Assembly: GCA_026195905.1 (NCBI GenBank)
Contig: JAPHRE010000038.1
Coordinates: forward strand, 1 to 64,000
DNA: 64,000 nucleotides
Reading direction: 5' to 3'
From: Pseudopelagicola sp.
Lineage (GTDB): Bacteria; Pseudomonadota; Alphaproteobacteria; Rhodobacterales; Rhodobacteraceae
Made by a program: the position numbers and the translations under genes. Below, in pieces: positions 45,648 through 54,810 of the stretch; position 1 is the first letter of the stretch; each line of letters opens with the position of its first letter. The notes below the pieces were generated by a model, which saw only the letters and a list, made by a program, of their open reading frames with translations, was not told the DNA's origin and made no database searches.

Positions 45648-46031
45648 TCAAATGATGATTAGGGTCAGCACGGTCAGAACAACCGAACCGCCGATACAAG
45701 CCCAACCGAGTTTTTCGGCCGTCGGAAGATCAAGCCCATGCCCCGCATCAAAAAGAAGATGCCGCAGACCAGCGAGGTAGTGATACCAAATCCCCAGAAG
45801 CGAGAGCGTGAAGAAAATATCCCCGACAATTGACGTCGCGAAGCCATTGGCGACCGCAAAATACTCCGGCCCCGCCGAGGCTGCAAAAAGCCACCAGACA
45901 ATGACAAATGCCGTCACGATCAACGCATTCCCGGTAATCCTGGTGAGGATCGACGTGATTGAGGTAAGCTGGGGGCGGTAGATCGTCAGGTGAGGAGAAA
46001 GAGGGCGCTCGACCCGTTTCACGTCAGCCAT
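45648..46031 (-). CDS. sdhC: succinate dehydrogenase cytochrome b556 subunit
   Basis: A 127-residue subunit with RPLSPHLTIYRPQLTSITSI, the SdhC signature, at the N-terminus. It has three membrane helices, and GLRHLLFDAGHG contains the haem-ligand histidine region. First gene of the sdh operon. AAAGGA precedes the ATG, and the paired TGTGATCACA sites lie 127-157 bp upstream. Confidence 0.94.
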   Translation of the reverse strand: MADVKRVERPLSPHLTIYRPQLTSITSILTRITGNALIVTAFVIVWWLFAASAGPEYFAVANGFATSIVGDIFFTLSLLGIWYHYLAGLRHLLFDAGHGLDLPTAEKLGWACIGGSVVLTVLTLIII

Positions 46032-46157
46032 TGTGAATCCTTTCGTTTTTCCTTGCGCACTTTTCTAACGCTTTTTCGTCTTATGTCACTGGAGTGGCAG
46101 CGCAAACAAATGCTTTTTTTATGTCATAAGGTCGAAAAAAGGGAAAAGATCCGCGGT

Positions 46158-46188
46158 TGTGATCACATATTTCCAAGCCGTGATCACA
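46158..46188. promoter_or_regulatory. paired palindromic operator upstream of sdhC
   Basis: TGTGATCACA (46158-46167) and CGTGATCACA (46179-46188), 21 bp apart start to start, on one face of the helix. The same pair with the same spacing lies upstream of sucC (53489-53519). No other exact copies were noticed in the window. The symmetric TTGT-GATC-ACAA-like shape would suit a dimeric GntR-type or CRP-like regulator; none is encoded here. The rest of 46032-46270 is AT-rich and without a gene. Confidence 0.75.
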
Positions 46189-46270
46189 CATTCAAACCCG
46201 ACAAAATGCATCGGGCTTAAACCGAGTCGGCAGCGGCGTCAGGCAAAACATGCTGCGCCGCCGCACGATG

Positions 46271-47302
46271 TTAGAGGGGCATCAACGCCCAATAGTCGAG
46301 ATCAAGCAGGACATCAGGAAGGTATTTGCCGTCCTCGCCCCTAAGCGCGAAAGGCGGTCCGCCCTTGGTCGCCACAAGACGAAGCCGGATCGCACCAACC
46401 CCCGGCATATCCGTTTCCGCCTTGTCGAGAACTTCCGACCACGCCTTGACCGTGAGGCCGGAAAACGCCGGATTGGCATGGGCACCCCCATTTAGGCCGA
46501 CAATCATCTGTGCATTGGCAAGACCATTGAACGACAAAGCCCGCGCAAGGCTGATGATATGGCCGCCATAGATCAGGCGCTGCCCATCGGGGCGGAAGGT
46601 CGCGTCGAAATGCACCTTCGCGGTATTCTGCCAAAGCCGCGTCGCCATCATATGCTCGGCTTCTTCCAGCGTGACGCCATCCACATGGTCGATGGTCTCG
46701 CCCACCTCATAGTCGCCCCAACGGTGCGCCTCGCCCGACAACGTGAAATCATAGTTGGAGAAATCAATCCCCTCGGGGATCACAAGATCCTCCGCCGCGA
46801 TCACCTTGGCCAACTCTGGCACAACGGTTTCCGGCGCGGGCGCATCGACATCGCGTTTGCGCACCATGACCCAGCGGACATACTCCATCACGACCTCGTC
46901 GTTCTGGTTCATGCCGCGCGTGCGCACATAAACAACCCCGGTTTTGCCGTTCGAGTTCTGCTTGAGTCCGATGACTTCGGACGTCGAGCGCAGCGTATCG
47001 CCCTCATAAACCGGCTTGAGCCAGCGCCCCTCGGCATAGCCAAGGTTCGCCACCGCGTTGAGCGACACATCCGGCACGGTCTTGCCAAACACAACATGGA
47101 ACGCCGCAAGATCGTCAATCGGCGCGTTCGGAAGGCCCGAGGCCCGCGCAAATTCATCCGACGAATGTAGCGCATGACGCGCCGGATAGAGCGCATGATA
47201 AAGCGCCCGCTCGCCGCCCGACACGGTGCGCGGCACCGCATGCTCGATCACCTGACCAAGCGTGTAATCTTCGAAAAACCGGCCCGGATTGGTCTTGGCC
47301 AT
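46271..47302 (-). CDS. mch: mesaconyl-CoA hydratase (beta-methylmalyl-CoA dehydratase)
   Basis: A 343-residue double-hotdog MaoC-type hydratase. It closely resembles Mch of Rhodobacter sphaeroides over the full length (NPGRFFEDYTLGQ, FHVVFGKTVPDVSLNA, KTGVVYV, EYVRWVMVRKRD, APAPETVVP, IDHVDGVTLEEAEHM, YGGHIISLARALSFNGLANA). It hydrates mesaconyl-C1-CoA to beta-methylmalyl-CoA in the ethylmalonyl-CoA pathway of acetyl-CoA assimilation. It is coupled to the DUF1737 gene by a one-base TAATG overlap and lies in an operon with mcl2. Confidence 0.93.
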   Translation of the reverse strand: MAKTNPGRFFEDYTLGQVIEHAVPRTVSGGERALYHALYPARHALHSSDEFARASGLPNAPIDDLAAFHVVFGKTVPDVSLNAVANLGYAEGRWLKPVYEGDTLRSTSEVIGLKQNSNGKTGVVYVRTRGMNQNDEVVMEYVRWVMVRKRDVDAPAPETVVPELAKVIAAEDLVIPEGIDFSNYDFTLSGEAHRWGDYEVGETIDHVDGVTLEEAEHMMATRLWQNTAKVHFDATFRPDGQRLIYGGHIISLARALSFNGLANAQMIVGLNGGAHANPAFSGLTVKAWSEVLDKAETDMPGVGAIRLRLVATKGGPPFALRGEDGKYLPDVLLDLDYWALMPL

Positions 47303-47505
47303 TAGTGCTCTCCTAATTTGATGTCCGGGGAATAGGTCCCGTCGACCTCCTTCACCACCGCCTGACCACAGCGCATAACGCCTTTCGCGGCGTCAAACGC
47401 ATAGGTCGGCGCGCCGTAAAGCTCCCAGCCTTTATTGAGGGCCGCCGTCACCTTATGACAAAAGGCCGAAGTGTCGTCTTCGCTTAGAAATCTATAAAGT
47501 TTCAT
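47302..47505 (-). CDS. DUF1737-type small protein
   Basis: A 67-residue protein starting MKLYRFLSEDDTSAFCHKV with GWELYGAPTYAFD in the centre, typical of the DUF1737 family. Function unknown. It sits between nnrU and mch, and its stop overlaps the mch ATG, so it travels with the ethylmalonyl-CoA pathway genes. Confidence 0.8.
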   Translation of the reverse strand: MKLYRFLSEDDTSAFCHKVTAALNKGWELYGAPTYAFDAAKGVMRCGQAVVKEVDGTYSPDIKLGEH

Positions 47506-47509
47506 GGCG

Positions 47510-48058
47510 TTAGCTCGGATAAGGCCAGGGGCCGACCCAATAATGGATATAGCCGATCACCACCAAAAGCACGATAGACGCGACAAGGAACATCCCGTCC
47601 TTGGCATAGGTGCCTTTCGGCCCCGGAACCCAGTTCGGCTCGCTGCGGTTGATGACGACAACCTCGGCCACGGCCCATGCCAGAAGCCCACCAAACAAGA
47701 TGACCGACGCCACATCCCCATTCACAAGCAAATGCGCAAACGCCCATGCCTTGAACCCGGTCAGCATCGGATGCCGCATCCCCGCAAAGATGCGCCCGCG
47801 CTTTGGTGCCGGACTCATCAGGAAAATCGCCAGAAGCACCAACAGGTTATTCACATGCACGGTCCAACCGGGCTTGCCCCAAAGATCAATGATCTCGGCC
47901 CGTTGATAGCCGATCACCATCAAAATGATCGACCCAACAATCGCAAGCGCCACAAGCCCCTTGCCACCATTGCCAAGTTTCGCCCGCGCCTCGGGCATGA
48001 GCCGCTTGAAAAAATGCGCCCCGGCCCAAAGCAAAACACCAAGAATGAGAAGTGCCAT
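47510..48058 (-). CDS. NnrU-family membrane protein
   Basis: A 182-residue membrane protein with about five hydrophobic spans and the GMRHPMLTGFKAWAFAHLL motif characteristic of NnrU/isoprenylcysteine methyltransferase-like proteins. NnrU was first noted beside denitrification genes, but here it stands between mcl2 and DUF1737, with no nitrogen-oxide genes. The role is unknown. Confidence 0.83.
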   Translation of the reverse strand: MALLILGVLLWAGAHFFKRLMPEARAKLGNGGKGLVALAIVGSIILMVIGYQRAEIIDLWGKPGWTVHVNNLLVLLAIFLMSPAPKRGRIFAGMRHPMLTGFKAWAFAHLLVNGDVASVILFGGLLAWAVAEVVVINRSEPNWVPGPKGTYAKDGMFLVASIVLLVVIGYIHYWVGPWPYPS

Positions 48059-48090
48059 ATCCGTCTCCCTTTATCTGTCCTGCGGGAAAC

Positions 48091-48945
48091 CTAGCCCTCA
48101 AGCGCCGCGATTGCATCCGCCTTGGCAAGAATTTCCTTCGCCGTCACCACATGCAGGTTCTCGACGATCTTGCCATCGACCACTGCAACGCCTTGCCCTG
48201 CGGCCTCAACCTCTTCAAACGCCGCGATCTGGCGGCGGGCGAGGTCGATCTCGGCGTCGGTCGGGGCAAAGGCCGCATTGGCCACATCAACCTGCGCCGG
48301 GTGGATGAGGGTCTTGCCGTCCATTCCCATATCCCGGCCCTGATCGCATTCCACCTTGAGACCCTCGGCATCCTTGAACGCATTATAAACGCCATCCACG
48401 ATGACAATGCCCTCCGCCTTCGCCGCCAAAAGACAAAGCGACAACGAGGTTAGCATCGGAAGACGGTCGGCGCGGAACCGGCACTGAAGCTCTTTGGCAA
48501 GGTCATTGGTGCCCATCACGAAACCAGTGAGCTGTTTATGCGCCGCGATCTCGGCCGCATTGAGCATCCCGCGCGGCGTCTCCATCATCGCCCAGATCGG
48601 CTTGTCCCCGACCAGTGCGGCCAGCGCATCAACCTGTGCCGCGCTCTCGACTTTCGGCAAGAGAACCGCGTCGCAATCCATCTCGGCCGCGGCCCTGGCA
48701 TCCGCCTCGCCCCATTGCGTATCAAGCCCGTTGATCCGCACGATCCGCATCCGGGAGCCATAGCCGCCCGCCGCAAGCGCCGCCTTGAGTGTTGCGCGCG
48801 CATTGTCTTTTTCATCAACCGACACCGCATCTTCGAGGTCAAAGATGATGGCATCGACGGGAAGGGTCTTGGCCTTTTCCAACGCCCGCTCTTTCGAGCC
48901 GGGAATATACAAAACCGAACGATAAGGCCGTGCGCGCTGATCCAT
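48091..48945 (-). CDS. mcl2: (3S)-malyl-CoA thioesterase
   Basis: A 284-residue member of the HpcH/HpaI/CitE TIM-barrel family. The N-terminal RSVLYIPGSKERALEKA, AIIFDLEDAV, WAMMETPRGMLNA, GTNDLAKEL and DGKTLIHPAQ, and the ENLHVVTAKEILAKADAIAA end, match Mcl2 of R. sphaeroides rather than the longer malyl-CoA lyase Mcl1. It hydrolyses (S)-malyl-CoA to malate and CoA, completing net malate synthesis in the ethylmalonyl-CoA pathway. First gene of the mcl2-nnrU-DUF1737-mch operon. Confidence 0.9.
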   Translation of the reverse strand: MDQRARPYRSVLYIPGSKERALEKAKTLPVDAIIFDLEDAVSVDEKDNARATLKAALAAGGYGSRMRIVRINGLDTQWGEADARAAAEMDCDAVLLPKVESAAQVDALAALVGDKPIWAMMETPRGMLNAAEIAAHKQLTGFVMGTNDLAKELQCRFRADRLPMLTSLSLCLLAAKAEGIVIVDGVYNAFKDAEGLKVECDQGRDMGMDGKTLIHPAQVDVANAAFAPTDAEIDLARRQIAAFEEVEAAGQGVAVVDGKIVENLHVVTAKEILAKADAIAALEG

Positions 48946-49155
48946 GAGTCTCTCCGTAATTTTGTTGCGCGGAATGGGCCATTATTTAGCGAAAACTTCA
49001 AGCCTGAATTTGCCGCAGCGCAGAAGAAACGCCGCGTTTCCCCCGGAACAAATCAGGTCCGCCCGCGCCCTTAACCGCGTTTTCGCTGCTTGTCCCGAGC
49101 CTTGAGCCTTCAGGCAAAGGCCGATCTTGGCCGCAAAATTCGAAAGAGCAGCCCC

Positions 49156-49476
49156 ATGAAAGACATGAAATCCAAATTTCTCGCCGCCACAATGGGCCTC
49201 GGCCTCCTCGCGCTCGCCGCCGGTCAGGTCAAGGCACAAGCCCAAAATTGCGCCCCGCGCGACGTGGTGCTCGAAAAGCTAACCGAAGACTTCTCCGAAA
49301 CCCGTCGCGCCATTGGCCTTGGCGACAATAATGCAGTGATCGAGATTTTCGCCGCCGAAACCGGCAGTTGGTCAATCATCGTGACCTTCCCCAATGGCGC
49401 GACATGCCTTGTGGCCTCTGGTGAGGCCTTCGAAATGATCGTCGAACCGCTCCCGGCCAAGGGCGAAAAGGTCTAG
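49156..49476 (+). CDS. small exported protein of unknown function
   Basis: A 106-residue protein: signal peptide MKDMKSKFLAATMGLGLLAL (cleavage near AQAQ), then a roughly 80-residue domain with two cysteines (NCAPRD and ATCLVASG) that could form a disulfide. It contains the pattern VVLEKLTEDFSETRRAIGL. ATG 49156 gives a proper signal sequence; earlier in-frame sequence does not. Its stop overlaps the convergent TSUP gene by four bases (CTAG). Divergent from mcl2; 48946-49155 holds no other gene. Confidence 0.7.
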   Translation: MKDMKSKFLAATMGLGLLALAAGQVKAQAQNCAPRDVVLEKLTEDFSETRRAIGLGDNNAVIEIFAAETGSWSIIVTFPNGATCLVASGEAFEMIVEPLPAKGEKV

Positions 49477-50213
49477 CTTAGCGCCTCCCAGATCAGCCTC
49501 GCCCCGGTGAGGCTGAGCAATACATAGGTCAGACCAAAGAACACCCGCTCCGACACCATGTCATGCGCCCTGACGCCCAGCCACGCCCCCAAGAGCGCAA
49601 AAGGCGCGAGCCACAGATCAAGCCAGAGTGTCTCGACCGTGAACACCCCAAGCACCGCGTATGGCAGCGCCTTGGCGATGTTGATGATCCAGAAAATGAG
49701 TACCGTCGTCGCCTGATACGCGGTCTTGCCGACGCCCCGCGACAATAGGTAAACTGCAACCGGCGGCCCGCCTGCGTGGCTGATGAAGCTGGTGAACCCA
49801 GCAGCCACCCCTGCCAGCGCCCCCACCCAGACCGGCATCGCCTTATACCGCGCCGCGCTCGGCCAAAGCCGCCAGATCACAAAGCCAACCGCGACCACCC
49901 CGATCAGGAACCGCAACACATCATCATTGGCCACCGCCATAAGCGCCACGCCAAGCGCCACACCCGGTATTCCGCCTGCGATCAACACCCTTGCCTCGGG
50001 CCAATTCCACTTGCCCCAATAGGGCCGCAACGTCGCGACATCTATCAACATCAACAACGGCAGCATCAGGCCCAACGCCTCCGCCGGCGGCAACACAAGC
50101 GCCAGAATCGCCGCGCTGGCAAAGGCCGCACCGGACCCGAAACCGCCCTTGGAAATGCCCGCAAACACCACCGCTGGCGCGGCAATCGCAAAAAAGCCAA
50201 GGTCGAAATTCAC
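49473..50213 (-). CDS. TSUP (TauE/SafE)-family permease
   Basis: A 246-residue eight-helix transporter with the family repeat segments FAGISKGGFGSGAAF and GFTSFISHAGGPPVAVYLL. TSUP proteins move sulfonates, sulfite or other organosulfur anions; the substrate here is unknown. I prefer GTG 50213 (VNFDLGFFAIAAP), preceded by AGGGGGG, over ATG 50267, which would add 18 basic residues not typical of the family. Confidence 0.75.
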   Translation of the reverse strand: MNFDLGFFAIAAPAVVFAGISKGGFGSGAAFASAAILALVLPPAEALGLMLPLLMLIDVATLRPYWGKWNWPEARVLIAGGIPGVALGVALMAVANDDVLRFLIGVVAVGFVIWRLWPSAARYKAMPVWVGALAGVAAGFTSFISHAGGPPVAVYLLSRGVGKTAYQATTVLIFWIINIAKALPYAVLGVFTVETLWLDLWLAPFALLGAWLGVRAHDMVSERVFFGLTYVLLSLTGARLIWEALS

Positions 50214-50337
50214 ACGCCCTGCCCCCCTAAAGTCCCGTATCTTCGTGACTTTAGGTCGCTTTGCCATCCCTGCACAGCCTCCGGTCGCCGCTGCGCTGCG
50301 GCGCAAAAACCTTGCGTTAGCCCCCTTTAGCGCCTAA

Positions 50338-51339
<1,002 letters not shown>

Positions 51340-51364
51340 CCGCCCGAACGACAACACAATCTAG

Positions 51365-51400
51365 AAACGCGCGTCTCCCCTCGGAGGCGCGCGTTTTCTT
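51365..51400 (+). terminator. rho-independent terminator of mdh
   Basis: AAACGCGCGTCTCC-CCTC-GGAGGCGCGCGTTT followed by TCTT. The stem has a single mismatch and starts 26 bp after the mdh stop. It also faces the convergent glycosyltransferase gene. Confidence 0.85.
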
Positions 51401-51434
51401 TGCCCGCGCCCAATTCCGCCAAGCCGCGCAGCCG

Positions 51435-52409
51435 TTACCGAAGACCGGCAAAGTCCCGCATAATCGCCGCTTTCGATAGATCGACCTCAACCCCCGGAAA
51501 CACCCGGCGGATCTTATCGGCTATCTGAAAATCATAGAGATACAGATGCCCGGCTTTCTCAAGCTGGCGGCTCTGGTCGGGCGACAATTCATAGAGTTGG
51601 CGAAAAATTTCCCGTGGCGGTCGCTCCGGGGACTCCTGCAAAACCGCTTTGACCATAGCGCCGCGCTGATCGCTGCCGATATTCGCGCGCCCTAGTCTTT
51701 GCACCTTCGCCAGCCACCCCTCATAGCTCCACGCATCGAAATGCAATAGCCCGACCTCGGTGAACCGGCGCTTGCGTTTGCGTTCGCTTTCCCCCTCGGG
51801 CAAATCCACCGTATGCAACCGAAGTTGGGCGGGTGATCCCACACGCACCCCCGCCTTGCCAAGATTGTGCCCACATAGCCCCTTTTTCAGGTATGCCGCG
51901 CTCTCGCCATAGACCGCCTCAACAAGGTTTGCTGCCTCGGCTGTGCTGATCCGTGTGCGGAACACGCCGCCAAAAACCGTCTCCGACGTGTCTTCGCCTT
52001 CGAAAACCCGCTCGGCAACCGGCAGGGTCGTGCTCCAGACGCGCCGTGGCAGCCGCGAAAGGAATTTCTGAAGCAGCGGCGTATTGACGATGAACTCATC
52101 AATATCGACATGGAACAGCCAATCGGCTGTGGTCTTGACCTGTGCATCGCGGGCATTCGCATATTGACGCCGCACAATGCCTTTCGGACGCCGCACGCCC
52201 CCGTGCAAGACCCGCCACCCCTTTGCATCCGCGTGAAAAACCTTCACCTGATCGTAGGCGGCCACGATGTCTTCAAATTCCGGGTTGGTCCGGTCGAGAT
52301 AAATGAAAATCTCCGACGCCCCGACCTCAATATGATGCGCGACAAAAGCAAGCAAAAGCGCGGTCGGCTCCGCTGCCGTCGTGACTGTGGCCCATGTCGG
52401 CAATCCCAT
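51435..52409 (-). CDS. glycosyltransferase family 2-like protein
   Basis: A 324-residue protein of the Glyco_tranf_2_4 type. It has AFVAHHIEVGASEIFIYLDRTNPE near the N-terminus (here the region 20-44) and the metal-binding HVDIDEFI motif near residue 99. The product would be a surface glycan or glycoconjugate. It is divergent from a sulfotransferase-like gene across 231 bp with no other feature that I can name, which suggests a surface-modification pair. Confidence 0.78.
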   Translation of the reverse strand: MGLPTWATVTTAAEPTALLLAFVAHHIEVGASEIFIYLDRTNPEFEDIVAAYDQVKVFHADAKGWRVLHGGVRRPKGIVRRQYANARDAQVKTTADWLFHVDIDEFIVNTPLLQKFLSRLPRRVWSTTLPVAERVFEGEDTSETVFGGVFRTRISTAEAANLVEAVYGESAAYLKKGLCGHNLGKAGVRVGSPAQLRLHTVDLPEGESERKRKRRFTEVGLLHFDAWSYEGWLAKVQRLGRANIGSDQRGAMVKAVLQESPERPPREIFRQLYELSPDQSRQLEKAGHLYLYDFQIADKIRRVFPGVEVDLSKAAIMRDFAGLR

Positions 52410-52640
52410 GAGGCGCCCTTTCCCTATTACTCGCTGTTTGGCGCAATCGAATCACATCGCCACATCCAACGATATATACCCGCCAAGCCCACGGTATCAC
52501 GCGCTTTGTCGCTGCTCCTGTGGGCCGGAACCGACACGCTGCGCCGCCAAAACCGTGCAGGGCGCGGGGCTTTCGGCCAAATCGCGCCACCTCTCCGTCT
52601 TGTGGGTTGCATCCTTTGGCCCAACGCCCAATGAAACAGC

Positions 52641-53435
52641 ATGCAAGGACTGAACCGACGCATAGACCCCAAGCCAGGCGTGAAAATCCTGGGCGAGCGG
52701 AATTCGGGAACGAACTTCCTCGAAACCCTGGTGCGCGACAATATCCCTGACCTGCGGGTCTTCGACAATATTCCGACCCTGCCAACCGCCGAGAGCACCA
52801 TCTACCCCAAGGGGTTTTTCCCCAAAAAACAAAAACAGGCCGCCGAAGAGGCGCTTCTGGACCACTATCACGAGACCATGCTGGCATCCTCGGGGGGCTG
52901 GAAGCACGCCGCCGCGACCCCGCAGCTCAAGGATCGCTTTTTCGCCCCGACCGGGGCCGCCGCAATCATCATTCTGCGCCATCCCGCCGACTGGGCGCGC
53001 TCGATGCACAGAAATCCCTTTCACACGCTGTGTCAGGTGCCGCGCGCCTTCTCTGACTTCCTCCGCCAACCGTGGCTCACCACAGCACGAGACGCCCTTC
53101 CTGAACGGCTTGTGCCAGACCTCGTGTCGCTTCTGGCGGGTAAGGTCGATAGCTATCTCTGGCTTCTCGATACGTGGCCCAATAGCACGGTGATCCGGTA
53201 TGAAGACCTTGCCAAAGCGCCCGAGGAGGTGCTCGACCATATCGGCCTCCCTCTGCCTGCCGCCTTCAAAATCCCGCACGCCGACCCGCGCCGCTTTGCC
53301 CGCAAAAAGCGCAGCAATGAATCCTACGGCGAACGCGCGGCAAAGGCGTCCTACGACGTCCTGAGGCAAACCGATCAACAGTTTCTGCGCACAGGTCTGG
53401 CTGGCGGAATATGCGACCGCCTCTATCCTGAATAG
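52641..53435 (+). CDS. sulfotransferase-like protein
   Basis: A 264-residue protein. KILGERNSGTNFLETLV near residue 15 resembles the 5'-phosphosulfate loop, and IIILRHPADWARSMHRNPF (about 111-129) resembles the 3'-phosphate-binding motif of PAPS-dependent sulfotransferases. VIRYEDLAKAPEEVLDHIGL is also typical of the family. It is divergent from the glycosyltransferase. The acceptor is unknown. Confidence 0.7.
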   Translation: MQGLNRRIDPKPGVKILGERNSGTNFLETLVRDNIPDLRVFDNIPTLPTAESTIYPKGFFPKKQKQAAEEALLDHYHETMLASSGGWKHAAATPQLKDRFFAPTGAAAIIILRHPADWARSMHRNPFHTLCQVPRAFSDFLRQPWLTTARDALPERLVPDLVSLLAGKVDSYLWLLDTWPNSTVIRYEDLAKAPEEVLDHIGLPLPAAFKIPHADPRRFARKKRSNESYGERAAKASYDVLRQTDQQFLRTGLAGGICDRLYPE

Positions 53436-53488
53436 GAATTCACGGCCCCAAGCATTGATTCCCCAGAATGTATTCAAGTCCGTAGATT

Positions 53489-53519
53489 TGTGATCACAGG
53501 CAAAAATTTAGTGATCACA
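53489..53519. promoter_or_regulatory. paired palindromic operator upstream of sucC
   Basis: TGTGATCACA (53489-53498) and AGTGATCACA (53510-53519), 21 bp start to start, 98 bp before the sucC ATG. The architecture is identical to the sdhC-upstream pair. Flanking bases extend the symmetry to TTGTGATCACA on one side and GTGATCACAAA on the other. The rest of 53436-53616 shows no gene. Confidence 0.75.
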
Positions 53520-53616: not shown

Positions 53617-54810
53617 ATGAACATCCACGAATACCAGGCGAAAGCTCTGCTTCGCTCCTACGGCGCCCCGGTTTCCGAGGGCCGCGTCGTTCTCAAGGCC
53701 GAAGACGCCAAGACCGCAGCGGGCGCACTCGACGGACCGCTCTGGGTCGTCAAAGCACAAATCCACGCAGGTGGCCGCGGCAAAGGGTCTTTCAAAGAGG
53801 CCGACGCGGGCGAAAAAGGCGGTGTCCGCCTCGCCAAATCGGTGGAAGAAGCCGCCGAAGAAGCCAAGAAAATGCTGGGCCGCACCCTCGTGACCCATCA
53901 GACCGGCCCGGCGGGCAAACAGGTCAACCGCATCTACATCGAAGACGGCTCGGATATCGAGCGCGAACTCTACCTCGCCTTCCTCGTGGACCGCGTGTCC
54001 TCGCGCATCTCGATCGTCGCCTCGACCGAAGGCGGCATGGACATCGAAGAAGTCGCCGCCTCGACCCCGGAGAAAATCCTCTCCTTCTCGATCGACCCGG
54101 CCACCGGCTACATGCCGTTCCACGGCCGCCGCGTCGCCTTTTCGCTCGGCCTGACCGGCGGCCAGGTCAAACAATGCGTTCAGCTTCTCGACAAGCTCTA
54201 CCGCGCCTTCGTCGAGAAGGACATGGAGATGCTCGAAATCAACCCGCTGATCGTCATGCCCGATGGCAACCTCAAGCTGCTCGACGCCAAGCTCGGCTTT
54301 GACGGCAACGCGGTCTACCGTCACCCGGACGTCGCCGAACTGCGCGACACCACCGAGGAGGACCCCAAGGAACTCGAAGCCTCCAAATACGACCTCAACT
54401 ACATCGCCCTCGACGGCGAGATCGGCTGCATGGTCAACGGCGCGGGCCTCGCGATGGCCACGATGGACATCATCAAACTCTACGGTGCAGAGCCTGCCAA
54501 CTTCCTCGACGTAGGCGGCGGCGCGACCAAAGAGAAAGTCACCGAAGCCTTCAAGATCATTACCTCGGACCCGAACGTCAAAGGCATCCTTGTGAACATC
54601 TTCGGCGGCATCATGCGCTGCGACATCATCGCTGAAGGCGTCATCGCCGCAGTCAAAGAAGTCGGCCTGCAAGTGCCGCTCGTGGTGCGCCTCGAAGGCA
54701 CCAATGTTGAAAAAGGCAAAGAGATCATCTCGACCTCCGGCCTGAACGTGATCGCCGCCGACAACCTCAGCGACGGCGCTGAAAAGATCGTCAAAGCGGT
54801 GAAGGGATAA
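53617..54810 (+). CDS. sucC: succinyl-CoA synthetase beta subunit
   Basis: A 397-residue ATP-grasp subunit of succinyl-CoA synthetase. It begins [16 protein letters not shown], has [16 protein letters not shown] for nucleotide binding, and a C-terminal [15 protein letters not shown] segment. The ATG at 53617 is the family start; upstream in-frame sequence covers the operator region and is rejected. First gene of sucC-sucD-sucA-sucB. Confidence 0.96.

Follow-up and report, generated by a model that had tools for sequence, protein, structure and literature searches.

The closest described relative of the system analysed here is AkgR of Rhodobacter sphaeroides, which we take to be the product of RSP_0981 and which presumably carries an FCD domain besides its GntR winged helix; a 2015 study of AkgR in mBio is said to have dealt with its direct action in vivo. 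The system in question is a pair of two-palindrome sites (hereafter doublets) before the operons starting with sdhC and sucC in a 64,000-nucleotide stretch of Pseudopelagicola sp. DNA (GCA_026195905.1, contig JAPHRE010000038.1, positions 1 to 64,000), the whole of which we call the window. The text on AkgR in PMC6365646 states GTGATCAC among the binding sites of this protein in R. sphaeroides and terms it an activator. In its text on the same regulator, PMC4344238 predicts that the GntR-family protein RSP_0981 controls sucCD (RSP_0967-6), sdh (RSP_0974-6) and the genes of 2-oxoglutarate dehydrogenase (RSP_0965-62). The system described here is alike in regulator family, in GTGATCAC sites and in these targets. 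It differs in gene position: the RSP_0981 tag lies five numbers from sdh, whereas the likely regulator gene here, P0001, is on another contig beside an accA-like open reading frame (ORF). Two further regulators come close. PS417_07240, which regulates a deoxyribonate cluster in Pseudomonas simiae, is an AkgR relative (32% identical) and a proposed GTGATCAC binder, but the passages on it in PMC6365646 describe a single palindrome at −47 to −40 in front of a catabolic cluster and no doublet before tricarboxylic acid (TCA) cycle operons. CceR (RSP_1663), a LacI-family protein of the same group, is predicted in the relevant part of PMC4344238 to control sdh and mdh in R. sphaeroides, but through a different motif, [A/G/T]GTT N6-8 AAC[A/C/T]. 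We set CceR aside as the doublet regulator because GTT N6-8 AAC is absent from the doublet cores (GTGATCAC).

Sequence comparison makes it very probable that both doublets are operators of AkgR, as a GntR-family, FCD-subfamily activator of the TCA steps that lead from 2-oxoglutarate to fumarate. The doublets exist as noted, are strongly conserved and find their best explanation in a regulator that had already been described in the same family. An earlier note on this DNA had proposed one regulator for both operons acting through a two-palindrome site, which the comparison supports, but had been unable to name an established one; the operator that it left unassigned now has a name and a likely gene. 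We add the likely regulator gene in the window's own genome, the geometry of the doublet across the family, the phasing by whole turns at sdhC and a frequent site at the regulator's own gene. Doublet geometry and phasing go unmentioned in the text on AkgR in PMC4344238 and PMC6365646 and are new relative to it, the primary AkgR paper lying outside this comparison. In this family, many of whose members are marine, control of sdh and suc thus becomes directly testable.

Doublets precede sdhC and sucC

The window holds four exact GTGATCAC matches in total. They form two pairs, each with a start-to-start distance of 21 bp (GTGATCAC-N13-GTGATCAC), at the positions and spacing that the earlier note had given.

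46158 to 46188, no strand assigned: sdhC doublet, putative AkgR-type operator, TGTGATCACA at 46158-46167 and CGTGATCACA at 46179-46188; 43 of the 127 listed public doublets precede sdhC
53489 to 53519, no strand assigned: sucC doublet, putative AkgR-type operator, TGTGATCACA at 53489-53498 and AGTGATCACA at 53510-53519; 58 of the 127 listed public doublets precede sucC
45648 to 46031, minus strand: sdhC, first gene of sdhCDAB (Sdh_cyt domain)
53617 to 54810, plus strand: sucC, first gene of the sucCD-sucAB-lpd run (ORF listing and Pfam)

Between doublet and gene start lie 126 nt for sdhC (46031, minus strand) and 97 nt for sucC (53617, plus strand, an ATG internal to the listed ORF), in keeping with the roughly 100-130 bp noted earlier; sucAB and lpd lie downstream of sucCD on the same strand. 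The gene mdh (50377-51339), described as lacking the sites, has no exact GTGATCAC nearby in a scan of the 64-kb window. Core and spacing justify calling the two operators identical, but the 13 bp between the cores differ between them.

The window's own genome (3.06 Mb, 97% complete, 80 contigs) contains 32 GTGATCAC palindromes, from which about 0.0003 pairs at exactly 21 bp would be expected by chance per genome. The genome-wide motif search that the earlier note had suggested found the doublets not to be scattered: only two are exact, with none at one mismatch and four at two mismatches. The exact ones precede sdhC and sucC, which matches the target set of the AkgR regulon (sdh, sucCD and the 2-oxoglutarate dehydrogenase genes). 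Two further single copies of TGTGATCACA occur in this genome, one inside an ORF (contig C77) and one about 160 nt upstream of an ORF (contig C7); by a rough estimate, one or two would be expected by chance.

Conservation across Rhodobacteraceae

A scan of public genome contigs for the exact doublet returned at least 120 loci holding at least 127 doublets, and neighbouring genes were identified by tblastn with window proteins as queries. The doublet is conserved before orthologous sdhC and sucC, a comparison that had also been proposed: 101 of the 127 listed doublets precede one or the other, with gaps of 113-204 nt at sdhC (median 137, n = 43) and 95-149 nt at sucC (median 109, n = 58). In the listed doublets, conservation is stronger in the outer flanks (TT to the left of the first core, AAA to the right of the second) than at the inner bases. 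Among the remaining 26, 21 are in organisms outside Alphaproteobacteria. At L041, L072 and the second doublet of L068, mdh lies about 1.1 kb off and the locus ends before sucC could appear; at L066 and L124, in records named Rhodobacteraceae or Yoonia, the doublets fall within ORFs.

Among 120 genomes of the family, 105 contain an exact doublet with a 12-13-nt spacer. Widening the spacer to 2-32 nt gave 106, the difference being genome G061, which the stricter count turns into an exception without altering our assessment. The 75 family doublets listed from this wider search have spacers of 13 nt in 64 cases and 12 nt in 4, with 7 scattered. Doublets with a 12-nt spacer were seen eight times over several searches, and the four with an examined locus (L265, L274, L276 and L277) all precede sucC. 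In a draw of 289 genomes from the class, 285 came from outside the window's family, and 2 of these contained an exact doublet. Of these two doublets, the one at L262 lies inside an ORF, and the one at L261:992-1020 immediately precedes a GntR/FCD gene with 29% identity to P0001, a hint that a wider regulator clade may share the motif.

One doublet appears to extend the target set along the TCA cycle. Genome G042 has a third exact 21-bp doublet (L275:1501-1529, contig C16) before a fumC-type fumarase gene, and the fumC step is the next after succinate dehydrogenase. No other located doublet preceded fumC. Ten stray or odd-spaced pairs were examined for ORF overlap: one is this fumC pair, and each of the other nine is overlapped by one or more mechanical ORFs, a weak sign that those nine may be chance occurrences.

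That the doublet as such is a chance or structural DNA element without a cognate protein would fit the exact copies that occur singly elsewhere, such as the 21 listed outside Alphaproteobacteria and those inside ORFs at L066 and L124. This explanation is nearly negligible in view of two doublets in the window's genome against 0.0003 expected, both before TCA operons, and of a frequency of 105/120 in the family against 2/285 in the class outside it.

A candidate regulator gene tracks the doublet

The earlier note had found no regulator gene in the window. This holds because P0001, the one close candidate relative in the own genome, is encoded on another contig (C51). P0001 is a 216-aa protein with GntR and FCD domains (E values of 8e-14 and 2.7e-17, both past curated cut-offs), and TGTGATCACA lies 8 nt before its ATG. 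It is a likely AkgR counterpart. Among the rows listed for the search of 120 genomes, a gap in identity separates close P0001 relatives (at least 48%) from other proteins (at most 41%), and matches at E < 1e-50 were found in 104 of the 120 genomes. In eight genomes selected because the regulator gene is linked, seven have it no more than 2 kb from lpd and one (L294) has it behind sdhB, the latter being the position that the tags RSP_0974-6 and 0981 would suggest.

We compared the presence of exact cores with a 12-13-nt spacer with that of a P0001 match at E < 1e-50 across the 120 family genomes. Both were found in 102 genomes, the doublet only in 3, the gene only in 2 and neither in 13 (Fisher p 6e-13, with the relatedness of genomes ignored). 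In the 13 genomes with neither, no doublet with up to two mismatches precedes the examined sucC or sdhC, three-mismatch matches occurring in G017 and G101; for G021, one of the 13, the coverage did not reach sdhC and the SucC match is a 53% relative. A SucC tree of 67 rows, which includes the other 12 and is midpoint-rooted for drawing only, needs five label changes, three of them forced by well-supported branches. Eight of the genomes with neither fall outside the site-bearing group and four inside it (G048; G029, G102 and G109). The latter pattern reads as a joint loss of sites and regulator, in about two events on the tree as drawn, and such losses would show the turnover of a small TCA regulon.

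A different regulator might bind the doublets, for example the 40% paralogue of P0001 at G000:C41 or a non-GntR protein. GntR/FCD relatives beyond the family also have GTGATCAC upstream, as a doublet at L261 (29% identity) and as single sites at L281 (40%) and L293 (36%), so close AkgR relatives are not alone in having the motif; moreover, G061 has the gene without a doublet and three genomes show the reverse. Yet the 120 nt before the paralogue hold TTGATCAA and not GTGATCAC, and it is the close relative that tracks the doublets, as in G054, which has only a 39% match to P0001 and no doublet. We therefore regard a different regulator as very improbable. The best P0001 relatives outside the family reach 41% identity, and 2 of the 12 examined have GTGATCAC upstream.

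Some properties of these proteins were observed in passing. The paralogue gene (G000:C41:35752-36348, L291) carries TTGATCAA about 120 nt upstream, without GTGATCAC, and the same holds for its counterpart in the sister genome G141 (L292). By sequence, the best solved-structure match of P0001 is Escherichia coli McbR (PDB 4p9f, E 3e-18), likewise of the GntR family; the similarity is distant, and McbR controls a different regulon. Asn137, His141, His184 and Asp206 of P0001 are invariant in 26 aligned AkgR-like proteins. The usual metal-binding set of FCD domains is Asp plus three His, and the ligand site of the P0001 group may be a variant of it. Literature text matches to TGTGATCACA were, by title, unrelated to an AkgR-type regulator.

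Helical phasing at the sdhC promoter

A −35-like box was called in 40 of the 43 sdhC regions (none for L006, L008 and L035). It reads GTGACA or GTGACT in 37 of the 40 and is followed after 16 nt by a TANNNN −10 box in 33. Distances from doublet to box fall into four classes, 46-47 nt (2 regions), 57-60 nt (29), 68-70 nt (5) and 78-80 nt (4), with nothing in between; equally good phasing arose in none of 20,000 random draws, in which loci were taken as independent. Sixteen distinct further sdhC regions, which share no stretch of doublet plus 40 nt with the first set (one pair being 79% alike over 179 nt), gave 12 distances of 57-60 nt, one of 68 nt and one of 70 nt. Hence 14/16 belong to the whole-turn classes; the exceptions are L180, without a box, and L157, where the match, at 17 nt, is poor. 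The four distance classes need nine changes on a 50-row SdhA tree, few of them forced by well-supported branches; five of 54 loci had no SdhA and are not in this tree. The window itself is one turn beyond the commonest distance.

46084 to 46089, minus strand: putative sdhC −35 box GTGACA, 69 nt downstream of the doublet core against a commonest distance of 58-59 nt; relatives have a similar box
46062 to 46067, minus strand: putative sdhC −10 box TAGAAA, after a 16-nt spacer from the −35 box

A second box in the window, ATGACA at 31 nt from the doublet, has no −10. Upstream activation from one helical face would lead one to expect shifts by whole turns and none by half turns, and the spacing of the classes by one helical turn suggests such face-of-helix activation at sdhC. 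The phasing with the −35 box is consistent with activation of targets by AkgR, and the series of distances offers a natural experiment on the orientation that a pair of upstream activators needs relative to the promoter.

A frequent single site in the candidate regulator's promoter

In the 80 nt upstream of the aligned regulator start, an exact GTGATCAC is present in all 30 best-scoring relatives, in 37 of 64 lower-scoring ones and in 4 of 8 in the linked loci (71/102 examined in total, the truncated genes of G027 and G091 being left out). Shuffled sequence would give 0.15 per 64. In 28 of 31 promoters (one sister genome included) and in 27 of 37, the palindrome core follows the start of a TTGA(C) box at a distance of 18 nt, so that the expected −10 overlaps the palindrome. 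This arrangement suggests a layout for self-repression of akgR that is common but not universal.

The same arrangement bears on whether the doublet could be a repressor operator through which AkgR shuts off the sdhC and sucC operons when TCA flux is unwanted. A single site over the expected −10 is a repressor layout, and repression is thus plausible for the same protein. At sdhC, by contrast, the doublet sits 46-80 nt upstream of the putative −35, which is unusual for simple repression, and a distance kept turn by turn fits upstream activation. The text on AkgR in PMC6365646, too, speaks of an activator. We consider repression at the doublets unlikely and favour activation by AkgR.

Under activation by AkgR, one dimer would bind each palindrome, and the 21-bp distance would align the two dimers along one helical face. 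With the sdhC pair in a fixed rotational position to the GTGACA/TANNNN promoter, the bound dimers would face and recruit RNA polymerase, and at akgR a single palindrome over the expected −10 would let AkgR limit its own synthesis. The dimer of dimers postulated in the earlier note is one reading only: two adjacent dimers would be an equally good fit, whether they touch or not, and the regulator promoter uses a single palindrome. For the window's organism, we infer AkgR binding, activation and self-repression from these patterns in the DNA. Across Rhodobacteraceae, we think it fairly probable that AkgR forms a module of fixed geometry, with dimers usually 21 bp apart, a distance to the sdhC −35 that evolves only by whole turns, often a single self-repressing site, joint loss of sites and regulator, and recruitment of fumC in one genome.

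Several points weigh against the assignment to AkgR. The doublet occurs without a detected gene in G019 (91% complete), G096 (77%) and G114 (rated 100%, 320 contigs), and the gene without an exact doublet in G040 and G061. In G040 both doublets are present with one mismatch each; G061 (91% complete) has two odd-spaced pairs, neither near sdh nor suc. The cut-off of E < 1e-50 was picked after the gap in identity was visible. The −35 rule was relaxed once, with a −10 score, after its first version (the last [GT]TGAC match), which gave 37 calls and one outlier at 126. The information profile upstream of sucC has conserved A/T stretches and no convincing −35/−10 pair, and 31 of the 102 examined regulator genes have no exact promoter site. 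Finally, the text on sdh in PMC4344238 also predicts CceR and NtrC there, so AkgR need not act alone.

Neighbouring genes and odd records

Between mdh and sucC, the window contains a glycosyltransferase-like gene on the minus strand and an ORF without a Pfam match (51435-53435). In many relatives, unlike in the window with its interposed genes, mdh lies directly upstream of the sucC doublet. Two records under other names contain a Rhodobacteraceae-like sucC with a doublet: L071, the Robiginitomaculum metagenome-assembled genome NORP54, whose sucC is 94% identical to that of the window, and L064, named Maritalea mobilis, which groups with the window on the SucC tree. Mis-binning or misnaming is a possible explanation for both.

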